A stretch of DNA of 50,676 nucleotides from an uncultured Clostridia bacterium (lineage in GTDB: Bacteria > Bacillota > Clostridia > Oscillospirales > Ruminococcaceae), in the NCBI GenBank assembly GCA_947625125.1, contig CANQNF010000021.1, positions 1 to 50,676 on the forward strand. Direction: 5' to 3'. Both the position numbers and the translations under genes were made by a program. Numbering within the stretch: position 1 is the first letter of the stretch; each line of letters opens with the position of its first letter. This document shows, piece by piece, positions 1 through 46,749 of this stretch. The notes below the pieces were generated by a model. It worked only from the letters and a program-made list of their open reading frames with translations, was not told the DNA's origin and did no database searches.

Positions 1-132
1 CGCAGCTCCGACAGGAGCTGCGAACCTTTAATCATCTAACCATGAATTATTATAATGTGGGCGATTTAGACACTCCCGATAAGTGCAAAAAGGGAGGATG
101 AGGGAATATGCCGAAAAAGCCCCCTTAGCCAC

Positions 133-2281: not shown

Positions 2282-2397
2282 CCCGCTGCCCGAGGCCGCC
2301 CGCTCCCACGGCGGCGGAGCCGCCGTGGGGCGCCGTCCCCCCAAGGGGGGGACGGCGGCCGGCGGAAGCCGGCTGCGGGCGGCGGAGCGGCAGCGGG
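2282..2397. repeat. Cloverleaf palindrome, family CL copy 1
   Basis: G+C-rich nested palindrome. Outer stems are CCCGCTGCC (2282-2290) with 2389-2397, and GCCGCCCGC (2295-2303) with 2375-2383. Inside are three arms: 2305-2329 (11-bp stem, GGA-type loop), 2331-2357 (12-bp stem) and 2358-2373 (6-bp stem, GGAA loop). It fills the gap between the DUF4830 gene and rsuA. The same three-armed plan with different sequence recurs at about 23.0, 42.1, 44.7 and 46.6 kb. Confidence 0.8.
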
Positions 2398-6629: not shown

Positions 6630-8294
6630 TTATTCAACCGAAATGATGTAGTAATACACCGGCTGACCGCCGCGTATCACCGTAATATCCATCCTTGAGC
6701 CGAACTTCTCGTTGACCCTCTCTCTGAGGGCTTCGGCGTCGGCGTCGGTCACGTCCTCTCCGACGATTATCGTTATAAACTCGCTGTCGCCGTCGACCAT
6801 CCTCTTGATGAGCCTGTAGGCCGCCTTGTTCATATCCGTCTCGACGAGCGTGAGCTTTCCGTTCTCAAGCGCTAAAATTTCGCCGTTTTTGATCTGCTGG
6901 CCGTCAAATTCGCTGTCGCGTGCGGCGAAAGTCACCTGCCCCGTCTTGACCCGCTCGAAAGCCTGAGTCATGTCGGAGCGCATCGTGTTGAAATCCGCGT
7001 CGGGGTCGAACGCTAAAAGCGCCGAGAGTCCCTGGGGGATGGTCCTCGTCTGCAAAACGCAGACCTTTCTGTCGGCAAGCTTTACGGCCTGCTCGGCGGC
7101 CATGATTATATTTTTATTGTTCGGCAGGACAAAAACAGTTTCGGCGGGAGTGGCCTGCACAGCGGCCAAAATATCCTGCGTAGAGGGGTTCATCGTCTGT
7201 CCGCCCTTTACTATGCAGTCGGCGCCCGCGTCCCGAAACATCGCTTCAATGCCGTCGCCTGCGGCTACCGCGACAAACCCGTAGGGCTTCTCGGGAGGCA
7301 CCGAAACATATGCCTTATTCGAGCTTGAGACCGTGACCTTATCGGGCTTCTTGGCGGCCTCGTGCTGCATTCTCATGTTCTCGATTTTCGGCAGATTTAT
7401 AGAGCCGAACTCAAGCCCCTTTTCTATCGCAAGCCCGGGGTTGTTGGTGTGAACGTGCACTTTGATTATTTCGTCGTCCTCGACCACGACCACGCAGTCG
7501 CCTATCGACTCAAGATATGCCCGAAGTTTCAGACTGTCGTCGCAGCCCTCGGATTTATGCACGATATATTCGGTGCAGTATGTAAAAGTTATCTCGCCGT
7601 CGAATTCCCCGACGACCGAGGCGAAAGTCTCTATGGTCACGGGCTCGGCAGGCTTGGCCTCGGGCTCTTTGTATTCATAAACGCCCTCGCCCTTAAAGAC
7701 CTGCTCCATCGCTCTCATATACATGCAGAATCCCTTGCCGCCTGCGTCTACGACCCCCGCCTTTTTGAGGGTCGGCAGAAGCTCCGGCGTGGTCTCAAGC
7801 GCCCTCTCGGCCTCGTCGCATACTATTCCCCAGAACTCCGCAACATCGGGAGTGTCGGGGGCTATCTGTTTGGCCTTTTCGGCGGCAAGCCTCGAGACCG
7901 TGAGTATGGTGCCCTCGGTAGGCTTCATGACCGCCTTGTACGCCCTTTCGACGCCGAGCTCCATCGCCCTTGCGAGGTCCTCGGTGGAGGCCTCTTTCAG
8001 CTCTTTGAACGCCTTGTCGTAGCCTTTAAAGAGAATGGAAGTTATAACGCCCGAGTTGCCCCTTGCGCCCCGAAGAAGCGCGCCGCTCATGATTTTGGCT
8101 ATCTCGCCGACCCCGAGGGAGTCGGAGGCTGCCGAAAGCTCGGCCTTGGCGCTGCCCAAAGTCATCGACATGTTGGTGCCGGTGTCGCCGTCGGGAACGG
8201 GGAACACGTTAAGAGCGTCTATATCCTTTTTATTTGCGGCTATGCAGTTGGCCGCGCTGATAAAAGCGTCTCTGAGAATTTTTCCGCTTACCAT
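6630..8294 (-). CDS. fakA: Fatty acid kinase catalytic subunit FakA-like (DAK2/YloV)
   Basis: Predicted to phosphorylate fatty acids carried by a FakB/DegV protein, feeding exogenous acids into phospholipid synthesis. The N-terminal DhaL/DAK2 kinase domain (about residues 1-195) shows NVFPVPDGDTGTNMSMTL, LLRGARGNSGVITS, EGTILTVSRLAAE and VDAGGKGF. A middle and a C-terminal FakA domain follow; 554 aa is normal. Two ATGs overlap the ribosome site AGGAGG; the second (8294) has the better spacing. It sits 11 bp after an Asp23-family gene, the usual YloU-YloV pair of Firmicutes. No fakB gene is in the window. Confidence 0.9.
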   Translation of the reverse strand: MVSGKILRDAFISAANCIAANKKDIDALNVFPVPDGDTGTNMSMTLGSAKAELSAASDSLGVGEIAKIMSGALLRGARGNSGVITSILFKGYDKAFKELKEASTEDLARAMELGVERAYKAVMKPTEGTILTVSRLAAEKAKQIAPDTPDVAEFWGIVCDEAERALETTPELLPTLKKAGVVDAGGKGFCMYMRAMEQVFKGEGVYEYKEPEAKPAEPVTIETFASVVGEFDGEITFTYCTEYIVHKSEGCDDSLKLRAYLESIGDCVVVVEDDEIIKVHVHTNNPGLAIEKGLEFGSINLPKIENMRMQHEAAKKPDKVTVSSSNKAYVSVPPEKPYGFVAVAAGDGIEAMFRDAGADCIVKGGQTMNPSTQDILAAVQATPAETVFVLPNNKNIIMAAEQAVKLADRKVCVLQTRTIPQGLSALLAFDPDADFNTMRSDMTQAFERVKTGQVTFAARDSEFDGQQIKNGEILALENGKLTLVETDMNKAAYRLIKRMVDGDSEFITIIVGEDVTDADAEALRERVNEKFGSRMDITVIRGGQPVYYYIISVE

Positions 8295-21047: not shown

Positions 21048-21441
21048 TCTGCCCCGACAGCGTGCGCTGACGTATGTGGGACACCGCGGTTTCCCCCATG
21101 CCCCTTTCCGCATAAGGTATTCGCTTCGCTCATGCTGTCTGAGTTCCCCTCCCCCCGGCCCCTCCCCAAGGGGAGGGGAGACAGGGTGGGCGGTATATTT
21201 GAGGCGCATATCTTTTAATTGAGTAGGTACGCTTTAGCAATTTAAAGTGGTGAATGAGCTTACATTTTTCAGGGGGAAGTTTTTGCCCCGACAGCGGGCG
21301 CTGACATGCGGGGGGGGGACACTTGCGGCTTCCCCCACGCCCCTTTCCGCACAAGGTATTCGCTTCGCTCATGCTGTCTGAGTACCCCCTCCCCCGGCCC
21401 CTCCCCAAGGGGAGGGGGACAGGGCGGGCGGTATATTTGGG
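21048..21441. repeat. Tandem direct duplication of about 235 bp carrying two family A copies
   Basis: The segment around 21048-21213 recurs at 21283-21441 in the same orientation with 85-90 percent identity by eye. Each copy contains GCCCCGACAGCG, a C-rich stretch, a family A half element (21116-21180 and 21355-21420) starting GGTATTCGCTTCGCTCATGC, and GGGCGGTATATTTG. Between and after them lie TTTAGCAATTTAAAGTGGTG and TTTAGCGATTTAATGCAGTG, which resemble single monomers of the satellite at 29.6-30.7 kb. The whole of 20946-21758 has no gene. Confidence 0.8.
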
Positions 21442-22965: not shown

Positions 22966-23137
22966 CGCCCGCACCGGGGGACTGCGAGCCGGAGGCTTGC
23001 AGAATTCATCGGGATAGCGCAAGGCGGAGCCCCGGCCCGCTTCGCGGGCCTTTCGTCGGCTTCGCCGACGAAAAAGCCGGCCGCATGGCGGCCGGCTGGG
23101 GGCTCCGCCCCCTCGGGTCAGCAGTCCCTGCGGGCGG
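22966..23137. repeat. Cloverleaf palindrome, family CL copy 2
   Basis: Outermost stem 22966-22986 with 23121-23137, next stem GGCGGAGCCCC (23023-23033) with 23098-23109. Three arms sit inside: 23034-23050 and 23053-23071, each closed by a CTTCG loop, and 23076-23096 closed by GCAT. The arms are perfect palindromes of 6 to 9 bp. Intergenic between the acetyltransferase and rpmE; nothing else is seen in 22661-23190. Confidence 0.85.
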
Positions 23138-25108: not shown

Positions 25109-25254
25109 GATGGGCGGGAAAATTTTGTGGGATTTGTGGCGAGGGAAGATTTTTGAACGGGCCTTGGCACAGACTGTGGAGAAAAGAGCTTGTAAAAATG
25201 AGAGAACGCATAGCTTGGGGTAAAAGGCGGAGCAGCGGAATGAGCTTGAGGTGC

Positions 25255-25303
25255 TTTCAAATGCGCAGCATGCAGAAAGCGCCGCAAGCGATATGAAGCT
25301 TGC
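25255..25303 (+). repeat. 49-bp repeat, family D copy 1
   Basis: Identical over all 49 bp to the reverse complement of 36151-36199. It starts TTTCAAATGCGCAGCATGCA and ends with a GCAAG/CTTGC dyad. Directly after it a hairpin (25312-25341, AAAATCC/GGATTTT core flanked by CCCC/GGGG) has the same plan as the terminator at 48655-48695. No gene in 24959-25388. Confidence 0.8.
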
Positions 25304-25388
25304 AAAAGGGGCCCCCGCAAAATCCGTGGATTTTGTGGGGCAAAGTCCGGAGCGACGGAGTGAATGAGCGGCGGCATTTATCCAATTA

Positions 25389-25426
25389 TAAAAATGCCGT
25401 CGCGAACGATACGGAGTCCGCGACGG
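25389..25426 (-). terminator. Terminator of tRNA-Pro
   Basis: Minus strand: CCGTCGCG and CGCGACGG form an 8-bp stem (25419-25426 with 25397-25404) followed by CATTTTTATAATT, beginning three bases after the tRNA CCA. Confidence 0.75.
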
Positions 25427-25428
25427 AC

Positions 25429-25504
25429 TGGTCGGAGTGAAGGGACTTGAACCCCCGACATCCTGCTCCCAAAGCAGGCGCGCTACCAACTGCGCTACAC
25501 CCCG
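25429..25504 (-). tRNA. tRNA-Pro (anticodon UGG)
   Basis: Complete cloverleaf on the minus strand, 76 nt with encoded CCA. Acceptor CGGGGTG/CACTCCG with one G-T pair, D-arm with AGTTGGTAG, anticodon stem CCTGC/GCAGG with loop TTTGGGA giving anticodon TGG, and T-arm GGGGGTTCAAGTCCC-type with TTCAAGT. Own promoter and terminator. Confidence 0.95.
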
Positions 25505-29489: not shown

Positions 29490-29525
29490 GGGGGGAGAGG
29501 GGGAGTGGCTAAAGCGGCCACATCA

Positions 29526-29610
29526 AGAATACAGAAGTCAGATCTCAGATGTCAGAATTTCAAGGCGTCGCCTATGGCGACGACTTTAAAAACAATGCGG
29601 GCGGGGTGGG
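29526..29610. repeat. CAGA-rich repeat, family C copy 2
   Basis: CAGAAGTCAGATCTCAGATG, then CAGAATTTCAAGG, a perfect hairpin CGTCGCC-TAT-GGCGACG, then ACTTTAAAAACAATGCGGGC. It abuts the start of the satellite array. Confidence 0.75.
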
Positions 29611-29619
29611 CGCTCTCCT

Positions 29620-33208: not shown

Positions 33209-33230
33209 CCCGACCGCACCTTTCCAGAAA

Positions 33231-33270
33231 AAATCCATCACAAGAACTTCAGTTTTGAGATGGATTTTTT
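33231..33270. repeat. ATCCATCTC hairpin, family B copy 1
   Basis: AAATCCATC pairs with GATGGATTT around a CTTCAG-containing loop, followed by TTTGCACAATCTTATTGCAA and TCTG-rich DNA. It sits directly behind a family A copy, as do the other two B copies at 36.5 and 36.7 kb. Confidence 0.75.
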
Positions 33271-35976: not shown

Positions 35977-36150
35977 TATGCGTAACTGCTTAAACCCCTG
36001 CATTTTATGTTTGTGGCATGCCGTAATTCGGGACAGCGCAGGTTGTCCACAGCCTTGCGGGCCCATCATTTTGCGGCAAAATGAAAAAAGTCCCGGCTTG
36101 CAGGTATGCAGGACGGGACAAATTTTAAAACATATTCATATCGTATCGTC

Positions 36151-36199
36151 GCAAGCTTCATATCGCTTGCGGCGCTTTCTGCATGCTGCGCATTTGAAA
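36151..36199 (-). repeat. 49-bp repeat, family D copy 2
   Basis: Reverse complement of 25255-25303 without a mismatch. Begins GCAAGCTTCATATCGCTTGC and ends TGCGCATTTGAAA. An open frame on the plus strand runs across it but lacks any gene-like property. Confidence 0.8.
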
Positions 36200-36295
36200 T
36201 CGCCGCTCACACATTGCGCGATTCCTGCCGGTTTCGCTTGAGAATTCGGCACAACGCTCAGACTTTGTACACTGACTGAAAACAAGGTATTCGCT

Positions 36296-36466: not shown

Positions 36467-36506
36467 AAAAATCCATCTCAAAAACTTAAGCTTTGAGATG
36501 GATTTT
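36467..36506. repeat. ATCCATCTC hairpin, family B copy 2
   Basis: AAAATCCATCTCAAA pairs over 15 bp with TTTGAGATGGATTTT around a nine-base loop, then CCGCACAATCTC and TCTG-rich DNA. Looks like a strong bidirectional terminator. Confidence 0.8.
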
Positions 36507-36720: not shown

Positions 36721-36759
36721 AAAATCCATCTCAAAAACTTTAGTTTTGAGATGGATTTC
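36721..36759. repeat. ATCCATCTC hairpin, family B copy 3
   Basis: AAATCCATCTCAAAA pairs with TTTTGAGATGGATTT around CTTTAG, followed by CCGCACAATCTCATTACAAC, as in copies 1 and 2. Confidence 0.8.
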
Positions 36760-40104: not shown

Positions 40105-40133
40105 ATTATAGCGGTTTTGAAAGGAAAAGTCAA
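40105..40133 (-). promoter_or_regulatory. Sigma-A promoter of secDF
   Basis: Minus strand: TTGACT (40128-40133), 17-bp spacer, TATAAT (40105-40110). The leader is about 75 nt. Confidence 0.85.
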
Positions 40134-40140
40134 TAGCAAA

Positions 40141-40290
40141 TTAGAAAACAGATTTGAGAAATCAGAAAACAGATTTTCAAAGGGTCGTCTCAGACGACGG
40201 ATTTAAAGGCGCAGGCCCTATTCTGATTTCTGATTTCTGTCATCTGTTTTCTGAGAGTCTATCCTCTGTTCATCTATCTTCTAACGCTCT
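40141..40290. repeat. CAGA-rich repeat, family C copy 3
   Basis: GAAATCAGAAAACAGATTTT, CAAAGGG, hairpin TCGTC-TCA-GACGA, GGATTTAAAGGCGCAGG, then TTCTGATTTCTGATTTCTGT and similar TCTG runs to 40290. The flanking CAGA and TCTG runs are complementary, so the whole element can fold back. It fills the gap between secD's promoter and the lipoprotein gene. Confidence 0.75.
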
Positions 40291-42069: not shown

Positions 42070-42098
42070 TTGACAAAAACCGGCTTTTGTATAATAAT
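42070..42098 (+). promoter_or_regulatory. Divergent promoter toward the aminotransferase gene
   Basis: TTGACA (42070-42075) followed by TATAATAATAG (42090-42100). The spacing is 14 to the TATAAT or 16-17 to the overlapping TAATAA/AATAAT, so the exact -10 is uncertain. Transcripts would carry a leader of about 240 nt filled by cloverleaf copy 3. Confidence 0.6.
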
Positions 42099-42118: not shown

Positions 42119-42317
42119 GGGCGAACCCGGACCGGCCGCCCCCAAAGGGCTTTCTGCTCGCCGCGGGCTTACGGCGCAGCCCCTCCGGCTTCGCCGGAGG
42201 CCCGCCCCCCCAAAGGGGGCGGGGGCCCGTCGGCGGGGCCGACGGGCCGGGGCTGCGCGCGGGCTTTCGGAGGGGCAGGAGGTAAAGACGACCCCCGGCC
42301 GGTCCCGGTTTTCGCCC
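42119..42317 (+). repeat. Cloverleaf palindrome, family CL copy 3, in a leader region
   Basis: Outer stem GGGCGAACCCGGACCGG (42119-42135) with 42298-42317 (one bulge), next stem GCGCAGCCCC with GGGGCTGCGC (42175-42184, 42250-42259). Three arms lie inside: CCTCCGGCTTCGCCGGAGG, one of CCCGCCCCC/GGGGGCGGG, and GCCCGTCGGC/GCCGACGGGC. It lies between a promoter and the aminotransferase start codon on the transcribed strand, so the RNA would fold into it. Confidence 0.8.
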
Positions 42318-42346: not shown

Positions 42347-43531
42347 ATGAACTATAACGTTTCCGAAAAATTCAAGAGTTTAAAGCCGTCCGCCATCCGT
42401 GAGATTTTTAAGTCGTTGGGCACCCCGGGCGCTATATCGTTTGCGGCGGGAAACCCCAACCCCGACAGCTTCCCCGTAAAGGAAATGCAGGAGATAGCGA
42501 ACGAGATCTTTGAAAACGAGCCGGTGACGGCGCTTCAGTACGGCATCACCGAGGGCTATACCCCATTAAGAGACCTTGTCAAAGCCCGCTTAAAGCGCGT
42601 TTACGGCGTCGGCGCGGACAGAGACGACCTTATTATTGTGACCGGCGGCCAGCAGGGAATAGAGCTTACCTGCAAGGTGATGTGCAACGAGGGCGACGTG
42701 GTCGTTTGCGAAAACCCGAGCTTCATAGGCGCTCTCAACGCGTTTCGTTCTTTGGGGGCAAAGCTTGTCGGCGTGCCTTTAAACGACGACGGCATAGACG
42801 TTGAAAAGCTTGAGGAGGCGCTTAAAAATAACCCGAAAGCAAAGCTTTTATACACCATCCCGACGTTCCAGAACCCCGCCGGCATAACCACCTCCCTTGA
42901 AGTCAGAAAAAAGGTTTTGGATCTTGCCAAAAAATATGACATTATAATTTTGGAGGATAACCCCTACGGCGACTTAAGATTCACCGGCGAGGACGTGCCG
43001 ACATATAAGAGCATGGATACCGAGGGCAGAGTAGTTTACTGCGGCAGCTTCTCCAAAGTCCTCTCGGCGGGCATGAGAATAGGATTTGTCTGCGCGGATA
43101 AAGACCTCGTCTCCAAAATCGTCGTCGCCAAGCAGGTCGAGGACGTGCACACAAACGTCCTGTTCCAGATGATATGCGCAAAATACATCGAAAAATACGA
43201 CCTTGAGGCGCACATTCGGGAAATCCGCAAAATGTATAAGCACAAGGCCGAGCTGATGATAAAGGCGCTCGAGGAGAACATGCCGAAAACCGTCAGCTTC
43301 ACAAGACCCGAGGGCGGCATCTTCCTTTGGTGCAGTCTCCCCGAGGGCGCGAGCCTTGACGAGTTCGTCAAAAAGGCGGGCGACAGGCTTGTTTTCGTCG
43401 TCCCGGGCACGGCTTTCTCTGCCGACCCCGACGAACCCTGCCGGTCGTTCAGGCTTAATTATTCCATGCCGTCCGACGAGGAAATAGTTAAGGGCATTAA
43501 GATTCTTGCGGACATTGCCAAAGAGCTTTAA
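42347..43531 (+). CDS. PLP-dependent aminotransferase, class I/II
   Basis: 394 aa fold-type I enzyme. The Schiff-base lysine (about residue 237) is in GSFSKVLSAGMRIGF; PLP ring contacts are in IVTGGQQGIELT, TIPTFQNPAGITTS and ILEDNPYGDLRF; the substrate-carboxylate arginine is in FRLNYSMPS. The arrangement matches the 2-aminoadipate/MocR-like subgroup without a winged-helix domain. Substrate is not determined. GCAGGAGGAG ribosome site. trmO starts one base after its stop. Confidence 0.9.
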   Translation: MNYNVSEKFKSLKPSAIREIFKSLGTPGAISFAAGNPNPDSFPVKEMQEIANEIFENEPVTALQYGITEGYTPLRDLVKARLKRVYGVGADRDDLIIVTGGQQGIELTCKVMCNEGDVVVCENPSFIGALNAFRSLGAKLVGVPLNDDGIDVEKLEEALKNNPKAKLLYTIPTFQNPAGITTSLEVRKKVLDLAKKYDIIILEDNPYGDLRFTGEDVPTYKSMDTEGRVVYCGSFSKVLSAGMRIGFVCADKDLVSKIVVAKQVEDVHTNVLFQMICAKYIEKYDLEAHIREIRKMYKHKAELMIKALEENMPKTVSFTRPEGGIFLWCSLPEGASLDEFVKKAGDRLVFVVPGTAFSADPDEPCRSFRLNYSMPSDEEIVKGIKILADIAKEL

Positions 43532-43532
43532 G

Positions 43533-44204
43533 ATGGAGCTTAAGGTCATCGCCCACATCGAAAACGGCTTCGGCTCGAAGTTCGGAATCCCCCGTCAGAG
43601 CGGGCTTTGCGGGATAAAAAGCAGGATAGTTTTCGAGCCGGAGTATGCCTCCCCCGAGGCTTTTCGGGGCATAGAGCAGTTTTCCCACCTCTTTGTCATC
43701 TGGGGCTTTTCGGAGGGCTTTGCCGCGGGTCTTTCGCGGGAGTTCTCCCCCACCGTGAGGCCGCCGAGACTCGGCGGGAACAAGAGGCTCGGGGTTTTTG
43801 CCACGAGATCCCCGAACCGCCCCAACCCCATAGGCCTCAGCGTTGTGAAGCTTTTGGACATCGGCCGGGGGTATCTCACGGTCTCGGGCGGAGATATGGC
43901 GAACGGAACGCCGGTGTATGACATAAAGCCGTATCTTAGGTATGCCGACTGCGTGCCCGAAGCCGTTTCGGGGTATGCCGACGCCCACAGCGCCGACAGG
44001 TTAAAGGCGGAGATACCCGACGCCCTCGGGAGAACCCTGCCGGAGGCCGTCATAAAAGACATAAAAGAGATACTTGAGAACGACCCGAGGCCGCAGTACC
44101 GGGACGACGGCCGGGAGTATTTTTTCGAGTATGCGGGGTACGATTTCGGCTTTCGGGTCGAGGACGGCAGGGCGATTTTAGGGCATGCCGAAAAGAAAAA
44201 GTAG
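43533..44204 (+). CDS. trmO: tRNA t6A methyltransferase TrmO (UPF0066/YaeB)
   Basis: 223 aa. N-terminal TsaA-like beta-barrel: VIAHIENGFGSKFGIPRQSG, the block EQFSHLFVIWGFS, and GVFATRSPNRPNPIGLSVVK which binds SAM. It adds a methyl group to t6A37 in tRNAs. Start at ATG 43533, one base behind the preceding stop; a longer frame overlaps the aminotransferase. The C-terminus overlaps the vanZ-like gene by 20 bp. Confidence 0.93.
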   Translation: MELKVIAHIENGFGSKFGIPRQSGLCGIKSRIVFEPEYASPEAFRGIEQFSHLFVIWGFSEGFAAGLSREFSPTVRPPRLGGNKRLGVFATRSPNRPNPIGLSVVKLLDIGRGYLTVSGGDMANGTPVYDIKPYLRYADCVPEAVSGYADAHSADRLKAEIPDALGRTLPEAVIKDIKEILENDPRPQYRDDGREYFFEYAGYDFGFRVEDGRAILGHAEKKK

Positions 44205-44697
44205 AGAGTTTTTCCGAAAGGAATTGAGAGCATTGAATAAAAAACGGCATCTGATTTTGTCGATTTCGCTGATTTTACTTACCGTCGGGTTTATCTGGAT
44301 AAATTCGGCGCTTCCCGGAAACGAGTCGGGAGAATTGAGCGGAAAGGTCCGGGAGCTGCTGCAAAAGCTTTTTGAATTCACGCATTTTCCCGAGCCGTTG
44401 GCGGGGTTTTTGCTCGACCACGTCCGAAAGCTCGCCCATGTCACCGAGTACGCGGTGATGGGGCTTGAGCTGGGGTTTTTGTGGCGGGGGCTGAGGATGG
44501 GGTTCCAGGGGTTCTGGAACGCCTTTTCAACGGTGCTTGCGATAGCTGTTTTCGACGAAACGATACAGCTTTTGGCGCTCGCCCGCGGCCCGCAGATAAC
44601 CGACGTTTTGCTTGACACGGCGAGCGGGCTTGCGGCTATACTTTTTGTATATTTTGTGTGGATAATTGCGGAGTGTATAAAATCCGGCGGGGATTGA
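44185..44697 (+). CDS. VanZ-like membrane protein
   Basis: 170 aa with four hydrophobic helices: LILSISLILLTVGFIWINSA, then after KLAHVTEYAVMGLELGFLWR, STVLAIAVFDETIQLLALAR and DVLLDTASGLAAILFVYFV. The VanZ signature E-x-x-Q within DETIQLL and DxxxxxxG in DVLLDTASG are present. Family members relate to teicoplanin resistance or unknown envelope functions. Start ATG 44185 overlaps trmO; a TTG start near 44236 behind AAAGGA is an alternative. Confidence 0.85.
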   Translation: MPKRKSREFFRKELRALNKKRHLILSISLILLTVGFIWINSALPGNESGELSGKVRELLQKLFEFTHFPEPLAGFLLDHVRKLAHVTEYAVMGLELGFLWRGLRMGFQGFWNAFSTVLAIAVFDETIQLLALARGPQITDVLLDTASGLAAILFVYFVWIIAECIKSGGD

Positions 44698-44707
44698 GGG
44701 TTCAGAC

Positions 44708-44860
44708 CGGGCGCGCCCACACCCGGGCTTGCGCGCCCCGCCTGTCCGACCCGCAGGGTCGGACCCCCGAGTGCGCCACGGCTTCGCCGGGGCGCACTCG
44801 GGGGGGTTCAGCTTCGCTGAACCGGCGGGGCGCTCCCGCAGCATGTTCGGGGCGCGCCCG
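44708..44860. repeat. Cloverleaf palindrome, family CL copy 4
   Basis: Outer CGGGCGCGCCC (44708-44718) with GGGCGCGCCCG (44850-44860), then GCGCCCCGCC with GGCGGGGCGC. Arms: GTCCGACCC/GGGTCGGAC, a long CCCCGAGTGCGCC arm, and GGTTCAGCTTCGCTGAACC. The last arm sequence recurs exactly in copy 5. Between the vanZ-like and gtrA-like genes, directly abutting a family C copy. Confidence 0.85.
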
Positions 44861-44953
44861 ATCAGAGGTTAGAGGATAGAGGTTAGAGATCAGAACCGGG
44901 AAACCCGAGCCGGCGCTGACAGAAGACAGAATTGAGAAGTCAGAGGTCAGACC
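44861..44953 (-). repeat. CAGA-rich repeat, family C copy 4, inverted
   Basis: TCAGAGGTTAGAGGATAGAG and CAGAAGACAGAATTGAGAAG are the reverse complement of the TCTAATCTCTATCTTC and CTTCTCAATTCTGTCTTC runs in copy 5 at 46.56-46.61 kb. It adjoins cloverleaf copy 4. Confidence 0.75.
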
Positions 44954-45021
44954 TGCTCCCCTGCTACCCCCGGTAATAACGCACACGGTTTATACTCTCC
45001 GTATTGAAAGAAGAGGTTTAT

Positions 45022-45438
45022 ATGGAAAAAATTAGGTCGCTGCTCCTAAGAAAACCCGTTCGGTATTTTCTCTCCTCGGTCGCGGCGTTTGCGGTAAACT
45101 ACGCCATGCTTTTAGTGCTGGAGCGGCTTCTGAGGGGGTTTTCCGGGCTTTCGATGGAGATAGCGGCGGTGCCCGCGTTCCTTATAAGCTCACAGCTAAA
45201 CTTCTGGCTCAACCGGCGGTGGGTCTTTCGCTCCGAAAATCGGGCGCTGCCTGAGCTTTTGGGCTATTACTCGCTCGCCGCGGTCAGTTTTCTGATAAAA
45301 ACCTACGTTTTGCTGGAGATTTTTGTAAGAATTTTCCGCATCCCTCTCGCGCTCGCCCAACCCATAGCCGAGGCGGTGATGTTTTTGGTCAACTATGCCG
45401 TCCAAAAAACCGTTATTTTCAACAAAAAGAAAAGGTGA
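45022..45438 (+). CDS. GtrA-family membrane protein
   Basis: 138 aa, four transmembrane helices: FLSSVAAFAVNYAMLLVLER, VPAFLISSQLNFWLNRRWVF, the region of YSLAAVSFLIKTYVLLEIFV and QPIAEAVMFLVNYAVQKTVI. NFWLNRRWVF is the conserved GtrA motif, and the end FNKKK is typical. Members flip lipid-linked sugars or take part in wall polysaccharide/teichoic acid modification. AAGAGG ribosome site before ATG 45022. The next gene starts four bases after its stop. Confidence 0.9.
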   Translation: MEKIRSLLLRKPVRYFLSSVAAFAVNYAMLLVLERLLRGFSGLSMEIAAVPAFLISSQLNFWLNRRWVFRSENRALPELLGYYSLAAVSFLIKTYVLLEIFVRIFRIPLALAQPIAEAVMFLVNYAVQKTVIFNKKKR

Positions 45439-46469: not shown

Positions 46470-46612
46470 TCAGAGAACAGAAATCAGATATCAGAATTTC
46501 AAGGTGTCGCCTTTGGCGACGGATTTAAACGCTTGACCGCATGCCCGGTTTTCCCGGTTCTAATCTCTATCTTCTAACCTCTGATTTCTGACTTCTCAAT
46601 TCTGTCTTCTAA
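46470..46612 (+). repeat. CAGA-rich repeat, family C copy 5
   Basis: GAGAACAGAAATCAGATATC, AGAATTTCAAGG, hairpin TGTCGCC-TT-TGGCGAC, GGATTTAAACGCTTGAC and GCATGCCC, then TCTAATCTCTATCTTCTAAC, CTGATTTCTGACTTCTC and ATTCTGTCTTC. The left CAGA arm and right TCTG arm are complementary over tens of bases. It abuts cloverleaf copy 5. Confidence 0.8.
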
Positions 46613-46614
46613 TA

Positions 46615-46749
46615 GCGGCGCCCGACATTGGGCGGCTCGGGTCCCGCCGGTTCAGCTTCGCTGAACCCCGGGCCCGCTTCGCGGGTCCGGGGGGCCGACC
46701 CGCAGGGTCGGCCCCCGGCGGGACCTCCCGGAACTTGCGGGGGCGCCGC
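46615..46749. repeat. Cloverleaf palindrome, family CL copy 5
   Basis: Outer GCGGCGCCC with GGGCGCCGC (46615-46623, 46741-46749), then GTCCCGCC with GGCGGGAC. Arms: GGTTCAGCTTCGCTGAACC (identical to copy 4), CCGGGCCCGCTTCGCGGG with TCCGG, and GGGCCGACCC/GGGTCGGCCC. Intergenic between the fliB-like and acyl-CoA synthetase genes. Confidence 0.85.

Follow-up and report, generated by a model that had tools for sequence, protein, structure and literature searches.

The closest described systems are the REPs, BIMEs and REPINs of bacteria, which the available parts of two papers present as short, dispersed, palindromic and extragenic sequences of high copy number that often lie downstream of genes (PMC3733652, PMC3116915). 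In the same parts, REPs are thought to be miniature non-autonomous mobile DNA that is active as folded strands; they are palindromes of 20–40 bp, mostly with a GTAG or CGTC tag, the GTAG REPs being linked to RAYT transposases and the CGTC REPs being without a dedicated transposase (PMC3733652, PMC3116915). In organelles, the hairpin-forming elements of sponge mitochondria are portrayed, in the portion of the source at hand, as repeated invaders that diverge in structure and composition (PMC2800124), and the LIMP palindromes of an algal mitochondrion, again from part of the source, as AACCA repeats that have an invariant 7-nt loop (PMC4524435). Template switching, in the excerpts of two further papers, gives two-sided stem changes and spacer inversion (PMC8794818, PMC8604942).

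The elements analysed here, which we refer to as cloverleaf elements, are like REPs and REPINs in that they are extragenic, palindromic and present in high copy. Multi-arm DNA hairpins with short loops and arm flip/flop are also found at the hairpin ends of parvoviruses and in the palindromic telomeres of Streptomyces, a likeness that we draw from general knowledge; those are replicon ends, whereas the cloverleaf is an internal dispersed repeat. Unlike REPs, at least as the available parts of the REP papers present them, each cloverleaf consists of three arms in a four-way junction, and the arm sequence is not common to its subfamilies. With the sponge elements and LIMPs it shares being a palindromic intergenic repeat, but these are organelle elements, and a three-arm junction was not met in the available parts of PMC2800124 and PMC4524435. 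Template-switch hairpins, as those excerpts describe them, have two-sided stem changes and spacer inversion in common with the cloverleaf, but represent a mutation mechanism and not a family of elements. Among the matches listed from open-licence papers there was no three-arm bacterial repeat, and the word cloverleaf is absent from the available part of a survey of stem–loop families in 40 bacterial genomes (PMC2267715).

Five three-armed elements in the window

The window, by which we mean the whole stretch of 50,676 nucleotides that was analysed (contig CANQNF010000021.1 of an uncultured Clostridia bacterium of the family Ruminococcaceae), contains five such elements, none of which is assigned a strand. 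Element 1 (2280–2399; outer stem P1 2280/2399, inner stem P2 2295–2383, arms 2305–2329, 2331–2357 and 2358–2373) takes up all of the sequence that separates a DUF4830 gene from an RNA pseudouridylate synthase gene. Element 2 (22966–23137) has its P2 core at 23023–23109, arms at 23034–23050, 23051–23073 and 23075–23097, and weaker outer pairing. Element 3 (42119–42317; P2 42174–42258; arms 42182–42200, 42201–42223 and 42224–42248) has the position of a 5′ leader of the aminotransferase gene at 42347–43531, and a scan placed a sigma-70-type promoter-like site (TTGACA, 17 nt, AATAAT) upstream of it at 42070–42098 on the forward strand. Element 4 (44708–44860; P1 44708/44860; P2 44733–44833; arms 44744–44764, 44764–44804 and 44805–44823) and element 5 (46615–46749; P1 46615/46749; P2 46640–46725; arms 46649–46667, 46666–46692 and 46690–46716) complete the set.

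A sequence-only reading had proposed that these places share one or two outer stems round exactly three perfect hairpins, with the shape kept and the sequence mostly not. RNA folding, DNA folding and a structural detector agree on the architecture of outer stem or stems round three hairpins. On both strands, elements 1, 4 and 5 folded as RNA with z-scores of −5.3 to −9.7, and on the forward strand element 2 reached −6.8 and element 3 −6.5; folds with DNA parameters were likewise three-armed, with z-scores of −7.3 to −10.1 (both strands of element 1 and, for each remaining element, the forward strand of the P2 core). In neither set of runs did any shuffle match the fold stability of a real element. 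The detector searches for chained hairpins, each ≥6 bp long with no more than one mismatch, enclosed by a stem that is likewise ≥6 bp long, and its limit of one mismatch per arm biases it toward perfect arms and two-sided changes. Across the whole window it reported five three-arm clusters, all at the five places, and no two-arm or four-arm cluster, while 10 local dinucleotide shuffles of the window gave two two-arm and zero three-arm clusters.

The number three therefore stands for all five window elements, whereas perfection of the hairpins does so for 13 of the 15 arms, since arm 2 of element 4 and arm 2 of element 5 (P2 starting at 44733 and 46640) each contain one non-Watson–Crick pair. 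Seven of the 15 arms have a TTC loop. The proposal that sequence is mostly not shared also calls for qualification: two arms are similar between elements 4 and 5, in reversed order, and element 2 has three paralogues in the rest of the genome with identical stems and different loops.

A second dispersed family was seen alongside, in the form of degenerate TTCTGATTTCTGA tracts at 29505–29615, 40124–40271, 46471–46614 and 44862–44945, which in places are preceded by a hairpin of the GTCGCC-AAA-GGCGAC type and CACCTTGAAATTCTGA. This family has many copies in this genome and its relatives, and several adjoin cloverleaf elements. The TC-rich degenerate repeat of this type at 46471–46614, without an assigned strand, abuts element 5; its part at 46471–46529 matches many other places by BLAST, the remainder having been read by eye. 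By eye, too, the tract adjoining element 4 (44862–44945) is an AG-rich mirror image of it.

Anatomy, abundance and distribution

The genome that contains the window comprises 3.17 Mb in 101 contigs, from which we sampled the window and 60 further stretches (1,250,676 bases). The detector found 49 three-arm, 2 four-arm and 13 two-arm clusters in this sample, the two four-arm clusters being three-arm elements with an extra hairpin. Three shuffled copies of the sample together gave 1 three-arm and 14 two-arm clusters, so that 49 three-arm clusters in 1.25 Mb stand against 1, and the possibility that the shape is as frequent in shuffled DNA did not hold. The restriction to exactly three arms holds in the window and not in this wider sample, where two-arm clusters are above the shuffle level (13 versus ∼5 per shuffled copy); this excess, also seen in the related genome G828, implies that two-arm relatives or decayed copies exist. 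Extrapolating from ∼41 per Mb, we infer a total of roughly 130 elements in the genome. An inner-stem pattern, GGCGNAGCC-45..75-GGCTNCGCC, had 53 matches per strand genome-wide, a count in which one place may appear twice, versus 2 for the reversed control.

None of 51 elements overlaps a called gene by >15 bp, where 79% of the sample is called coding by our own caller, which missed at least two window genes with Pfam matches (44185–44697 and 45004–45438). The flanking genes of these 51 elements are tandem in 28 cases, convergent in 12 and divergent in 9, and 2 elements lie at stretch ends.

Elements are about 110–200 bp long, with arms of 6–18 bp (mean 8.9). The 5′ strand of P2 contains GCGNAGC, itself a mini-palindrome, in 36/49 elements of this genome and in 96/111 of all sampled elements, and the longer GGCGRAGCCC is matched exactly in 21 of the 49. 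An internal loop separates P2 from the variable outer stem P1, which reaches at least 9 bp in 26/49 elements, compared with 2/245 when the flanks are shuffled. All 49 folds have a three-branch multiloop that with P2 makes a four-helix junction, and 144 of 196 linkers are 0 nt long. Whether as single-stranded DNA or as an extruded cruciform, the element is predicted to adopt a four-way junction with almost complete pairing.

The flanks of P2 are enriched in this genome for a CTYCTGC-like motif on one side and for CGCAC on the opposite side. With one element taken per arm family, the former occurs in 14/43 (shuffle mean 1.7, maximum 5) and the latter in 11/43 (mean 2.7). A separate comparison of motif with shuffle used 60 starts in the real data and 15 in the shuffles, which favours the motif. 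Over all genomes the counts are 15/71 families (shuffle mean 2.3) and 23/71 (mean 5.9), but the CTYCTGC-like motif is found in only 1/28 families outside this genome, and so is almost confined to it. Because similar arms were the criterion for a family, and some families are probably related, the enrichment of both motifs may reflect common descent.

The inner-stem pattern had 11 and 29 matches in two other genomes of the genus and 9 to 217 in nine related rabbit-gut genomes, one of which (G823) has the same places as G148, so that the distinct relatives number ten. In the deer-gut genome G832 it had 5 matches, and in G831 and G833 it had 0. A match is not always a three-arm element, judging from the matches listed. 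The detector found three-arm clusters in stretches of G015, G326 and G001, which belong to other genera of the family. In G156 and G832, three-arm elements were read by eye in matched sequence; over 100 kb of G156 the detector reported no three-arm cluster. The genus g16 has arms richer in A+T (e.g. CAATGATTTGC) with the form unchanged. Counting the genome of the window, a pattern match occurs in 23/197 genomes of the family, 29/245 of the order and 38/398 of the phylum, with at most 4 matches in any genome outside the family and, among the matches listed there, no three-armed look by eye in the first 80 letters of each.

Searched by structure, close relatives contained 9 three-arm clusters in 191 kb, with different arm sequences; one of the ten three-arm clusters in the scan of relatives' loci (L023) is A+T-rich and probably due to chance. 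Loci outside these close relatives, 763 kb in all, yielded two A+T-rich clusters that are probably due to chance: one in 311 kb drawn from 20 further genera of the family, and one in 452 kb from other members of the set of 38 loci that also supplied the relatives aligned at element 3, one of these loci being from G832. In G828, 360 kb (L152–L169) contained 20 three-arm and 12 two-arm clusters, compared with 0 and 1 in one shuffle, and its 217 pattern matches in 2.2 Mb exceed the prediction from this density. Several of the stretches from G148, G044, G015, G326, G156 and G001 were picked for a pattern match, which biases their densities upward. One family-A element compared with plasmid and phage records showed no similarity to them, and four pattern-matching stretches of viral contigs contained no cluster of at least two arms by the detector.

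How copies differ and where they sit

Among 111 elements, 51 fall into 11 subfamilies with similar stems and 60 are singletons; the set excludes clusters below 40% G+C, clusters not exactly three-armed, duplicated stretches and loci L010–L028, L030–L035, L038–L040 and L140–L149. The suggestion that stems are simply non-conserved is thus not supported. The subfamilies are mostly confined to a single genome. In 127 homologous pairs, 4.8% of stem sites and 44.7% of loop sites differ, and the 149 pair positions with a change comprise 139 that are altered on both sides and 10 on one. The 32 nearest-neighbour pairs behave similarly (stems 2.7%, loops 29.9%; 20 of 23 changes two-sided, 3 one-sided). 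Since homologous pairs were picked by stem similarity, their stem rate is lowered, and the loops there vary 9 to 11 times more than the stems. When single arms were compared because the other two arms matched, 16.5% of stem and 45.5% of loop sites differed, with 388 of 398 changes two-sided and 10 one-sided; in arms that were not themselves selected the ratio of loop to stem difference is 2.8, and 72 of 297 compared arms are <70% similar. Depending on selection, then, loops vary 3 to 11 times more than stems. These two-sided changes (139/149, or 388/398 without selection on the arm), together with a shape far above chance, support the proposal that selection or a copying mechanism preserves the pairing. 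Since stems are better conserved than loops, copying would seem insufficient by itself, and selection for folding, or fast change in loops, appears to be needed as well.

MAFFT with RNAalifold on 13 family-A copies, an alignment in which arm 1 is out of register, gave 35 pairs, 7 of them changed on both sides, with a covariation term of +0.35. A covariance model (R1) built from one subfamily lacked arm 1 in its consensus and was set aside.

Two further patterns were considered and set aside. Exact loop inversion (TTC and GAA) as proof of template switching was rejected, as 10/37 changed loops are inverted compared with 9.0 expected by random redraw, which is not significant; the clearest single cases are the PhoU locus described below and one pair (L173/L174) with an inverted middle loop in a core that is otherwise identical. 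As for a shuffling of arms among unrelated elements, 50 pairs have 9 bp or more of an arm in common, but many of these are homologues below the threshold and others may be chance in G+C-rich DNA.

In some pairs the likeness between copies stops near P1 or P2. For L173/L174, L053/L086 and L074/L077 it runs roughly from one strand of P1 to the other and up to about 17 nt further on one side, with unlike sequence beyond; two other pairs have the P2 domain and little else in common, and the P1 stems of L074/L093 are faintly alike. Element 3 is missing from the 200 bp upstream of the aminotransferase gene in all 12 aligned relatives (12 of 38 loci found), in 9 of which the TTGACA and the region after it are kept, as judged by eye. 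By spacing and by the detector, elements 4 and 5 are not at the corresponding places in L029. Where element 1 would lie, L029 has a tandem duplication that contains two three-arm elements whose arms are different; this is either a preferred site or an old element whose arms have been replaced. In G828, a cloverleaf and the TC-rich repeat lie together inside tandem units of 285–286 bp (L161:3902–4547, 2.3 copies; L168:7204–7934, 2.5 copies). One element, however, is kept at a PhoU/response-regulator locus (Pfam) in four genomes, with an inverted loop in one of them (G827) and 91.6% identity over 6.5 kb between the two genomes compared. Some copies therefore date far back and may act locally, and the element kept at this locus speaks for a local function and against a mobile repeat.

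Searches for the hallmarks of known mobile repeats gave the following. Ten Y1-transposase matches are present in this genome, several of them fragments, and none of the 10 surrounding loci (1.6–3.4 kb) contains a three-arm element. The two Y1 proteins scanned scored 153 and 148 bits with the IS200 model (cut-off 55) but 35 and 39 bits with the REP transposase model (cut-off 80), the other eight including the fragments; no RAYT was thus found in the two of 10 scanned. In the 26 elements whose P1 reaches 9 bp or more, no GTAG or CGTC tag lies within 6 nt outside P1 (shuffles 0.6 and 0.8), another difference from REPs as the available parts of those papers describe them. Unlike a classical MITE, these 26 have no target-site duplication above the permuted level, a direct repeat of 3–5 nt outside P1 occurring in 3/26 versus 59/520 permuted pairs. 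P1 stems might act as inverted ends, although they vary.

A probable dispersed DNA repeat and its alternatives

Overall we read the five places, with some confidence though not a great deal, as copies of one palindromic DNA repeat of the REP/hairpin-element kind, which is dispersed and probably non-autonomous. Such an element would spread as a non-autonomous unit whose folded form is recognised by some enzyme, and a folded strand whose four-way junction is almost completely paired would be a plausible substrate for an enzyme that recognises structure. The perfection of the arms may be kept by synthesis templated on the opposite arm, i.e. by template switching in the hairpin, which would homogenise the arms and could invert a loop, and selection for arms that fold would presumably act alongside it. 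Over longer times the arm sequences would be replaced while the fold persists. Movement of the element, if it occurs, implies an enzyme able to recognise DNA folded into a junction.

A bolder version of this idea, which we consider doubtful, is that of a shape replicator: mobile DNA whose recognised heritable unit would be the fold of a four-way junction in place of a sequence. An enzyme that recognises junctions or hairpins would move it, with hairpin-templated synthesis rewriting arms and loops while three arms are kept. In either case this is a bacterial repeat family in which the fold is conserved and the sequence largely is not, so ordinary similarity searches detect its subfamilies only. 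Its many near-perfect arms with variable triloops also form a natural test set for template switching versus selection for palindrome perfection.

Instead of being mobile, the elements could be chromosomal docking or recombination sites placed at many positions for a junction-binding protein, a nucleoid protein or a resolvase. We judge this quite unlikely. The nearly fully paired junction, the flank motif in this genome and the element kept at the PhoU/response-regulator locus in four genomes would suit such a site, but copies sit in unlike flanks, relatives have empty sites, subfamilies lie mostly within one genome and the pattern counts of relatives range from 9 to 217.

The sequence-only reading had named RNA as its first suggestion, and a structured RNA (a leader, a 3′ UTR or a small RNA) selected for its fold would agree with stable folding under RNA parameters, with the place of element 3 in a leader downstream of the promoter-like site, and with the many elements that by eye are nearer the 3′ end of an adjacent gene than a start. 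We nevertheless find it improbable, as the constraint on the arms looks to be at the level of DNA. The 2,975 arm pairs of 111 elements include 20 mismatches, of which 4 are G–T, 2 A–C and 14 other. In RNA minimum-free-energy folds, G–U accounts for 18 of 4,110 element pairs (0.4%) versus 34 of 477 (7%) in 21 tRNAs of the same sample. The folds are similar on both strands, 9 divergent and 12 convergent sites are among the 49 classified, the loops are the most variable part, and neither a Rfam match to an element at the gathering score (in the window only a tRNA matches) nor a T-run terminator in a scan of element 3 was found.

The loops themselves point the same way. Out of 333 loops, 312 are closed by a C–G pair and 268 are 3 nt long, 226 of the latter being GNA or TNC. 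Loops of the d(GCGAAGC) type make very stable DNA mini-hairpins. In the sample from the genome of the window, GNA/TNC triloops occur in 92 of 147 arms (those of the 49 exact three-arm clusters) versus 21 of the 343 remaining perfect hairpins of 8 bp or longer, and, counting 3-nt loops only, in 92/112 element arms versus 21/67 other hairpins. Relative to the sense of flanking tandem genes the two types are symmetric (GNA 26, TNC 26), while on the arbitrary contig strand TNC exceeds GNA by 62 to 30, perhaps because family A lies mostly one way round.

Least probable of all is a mutational by-product, in which template switching grows and perfects intergenic hairpins without selection or mobility, since, although two-sided changes dominate and arm homogenisation and spacer inversion are described for template switching in the excerpts of PMC8794818 and PMC8604942, template switching alone leaves the three arms, the common P2 and the copies in unlike places unexplained, and the 763 kb of other loci, mostly from the same broad group, are without elements apart from the two probable chance matches.

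Several other repeats were seen in passing. In the window, inverted repeats with AAATCCATC sequences lie at 36469–36506, 36721–36758 and 33228–33270 and are perhaps another small repeat family, and the segments 25218–25453 (near a tRNA gene) and 36142–36220 match several places in L007 and L116 at 71–92%, as another repeat. A hairpin repeat of two arms inside a CGGGGG stem, unlike the three-arm family, occurs twice (L062:16276–16332 and L073:1856–1912). In another genus of the family, two near-identical two-hairpin elements lie 302 bp apart (L132:7105–7179 and 7407–7481). Finally, identical CCCCTCCCCAAGGGGAGGGG palindromes are found in the window at 21159–21178 and 21398–21417, 219 bp apart.
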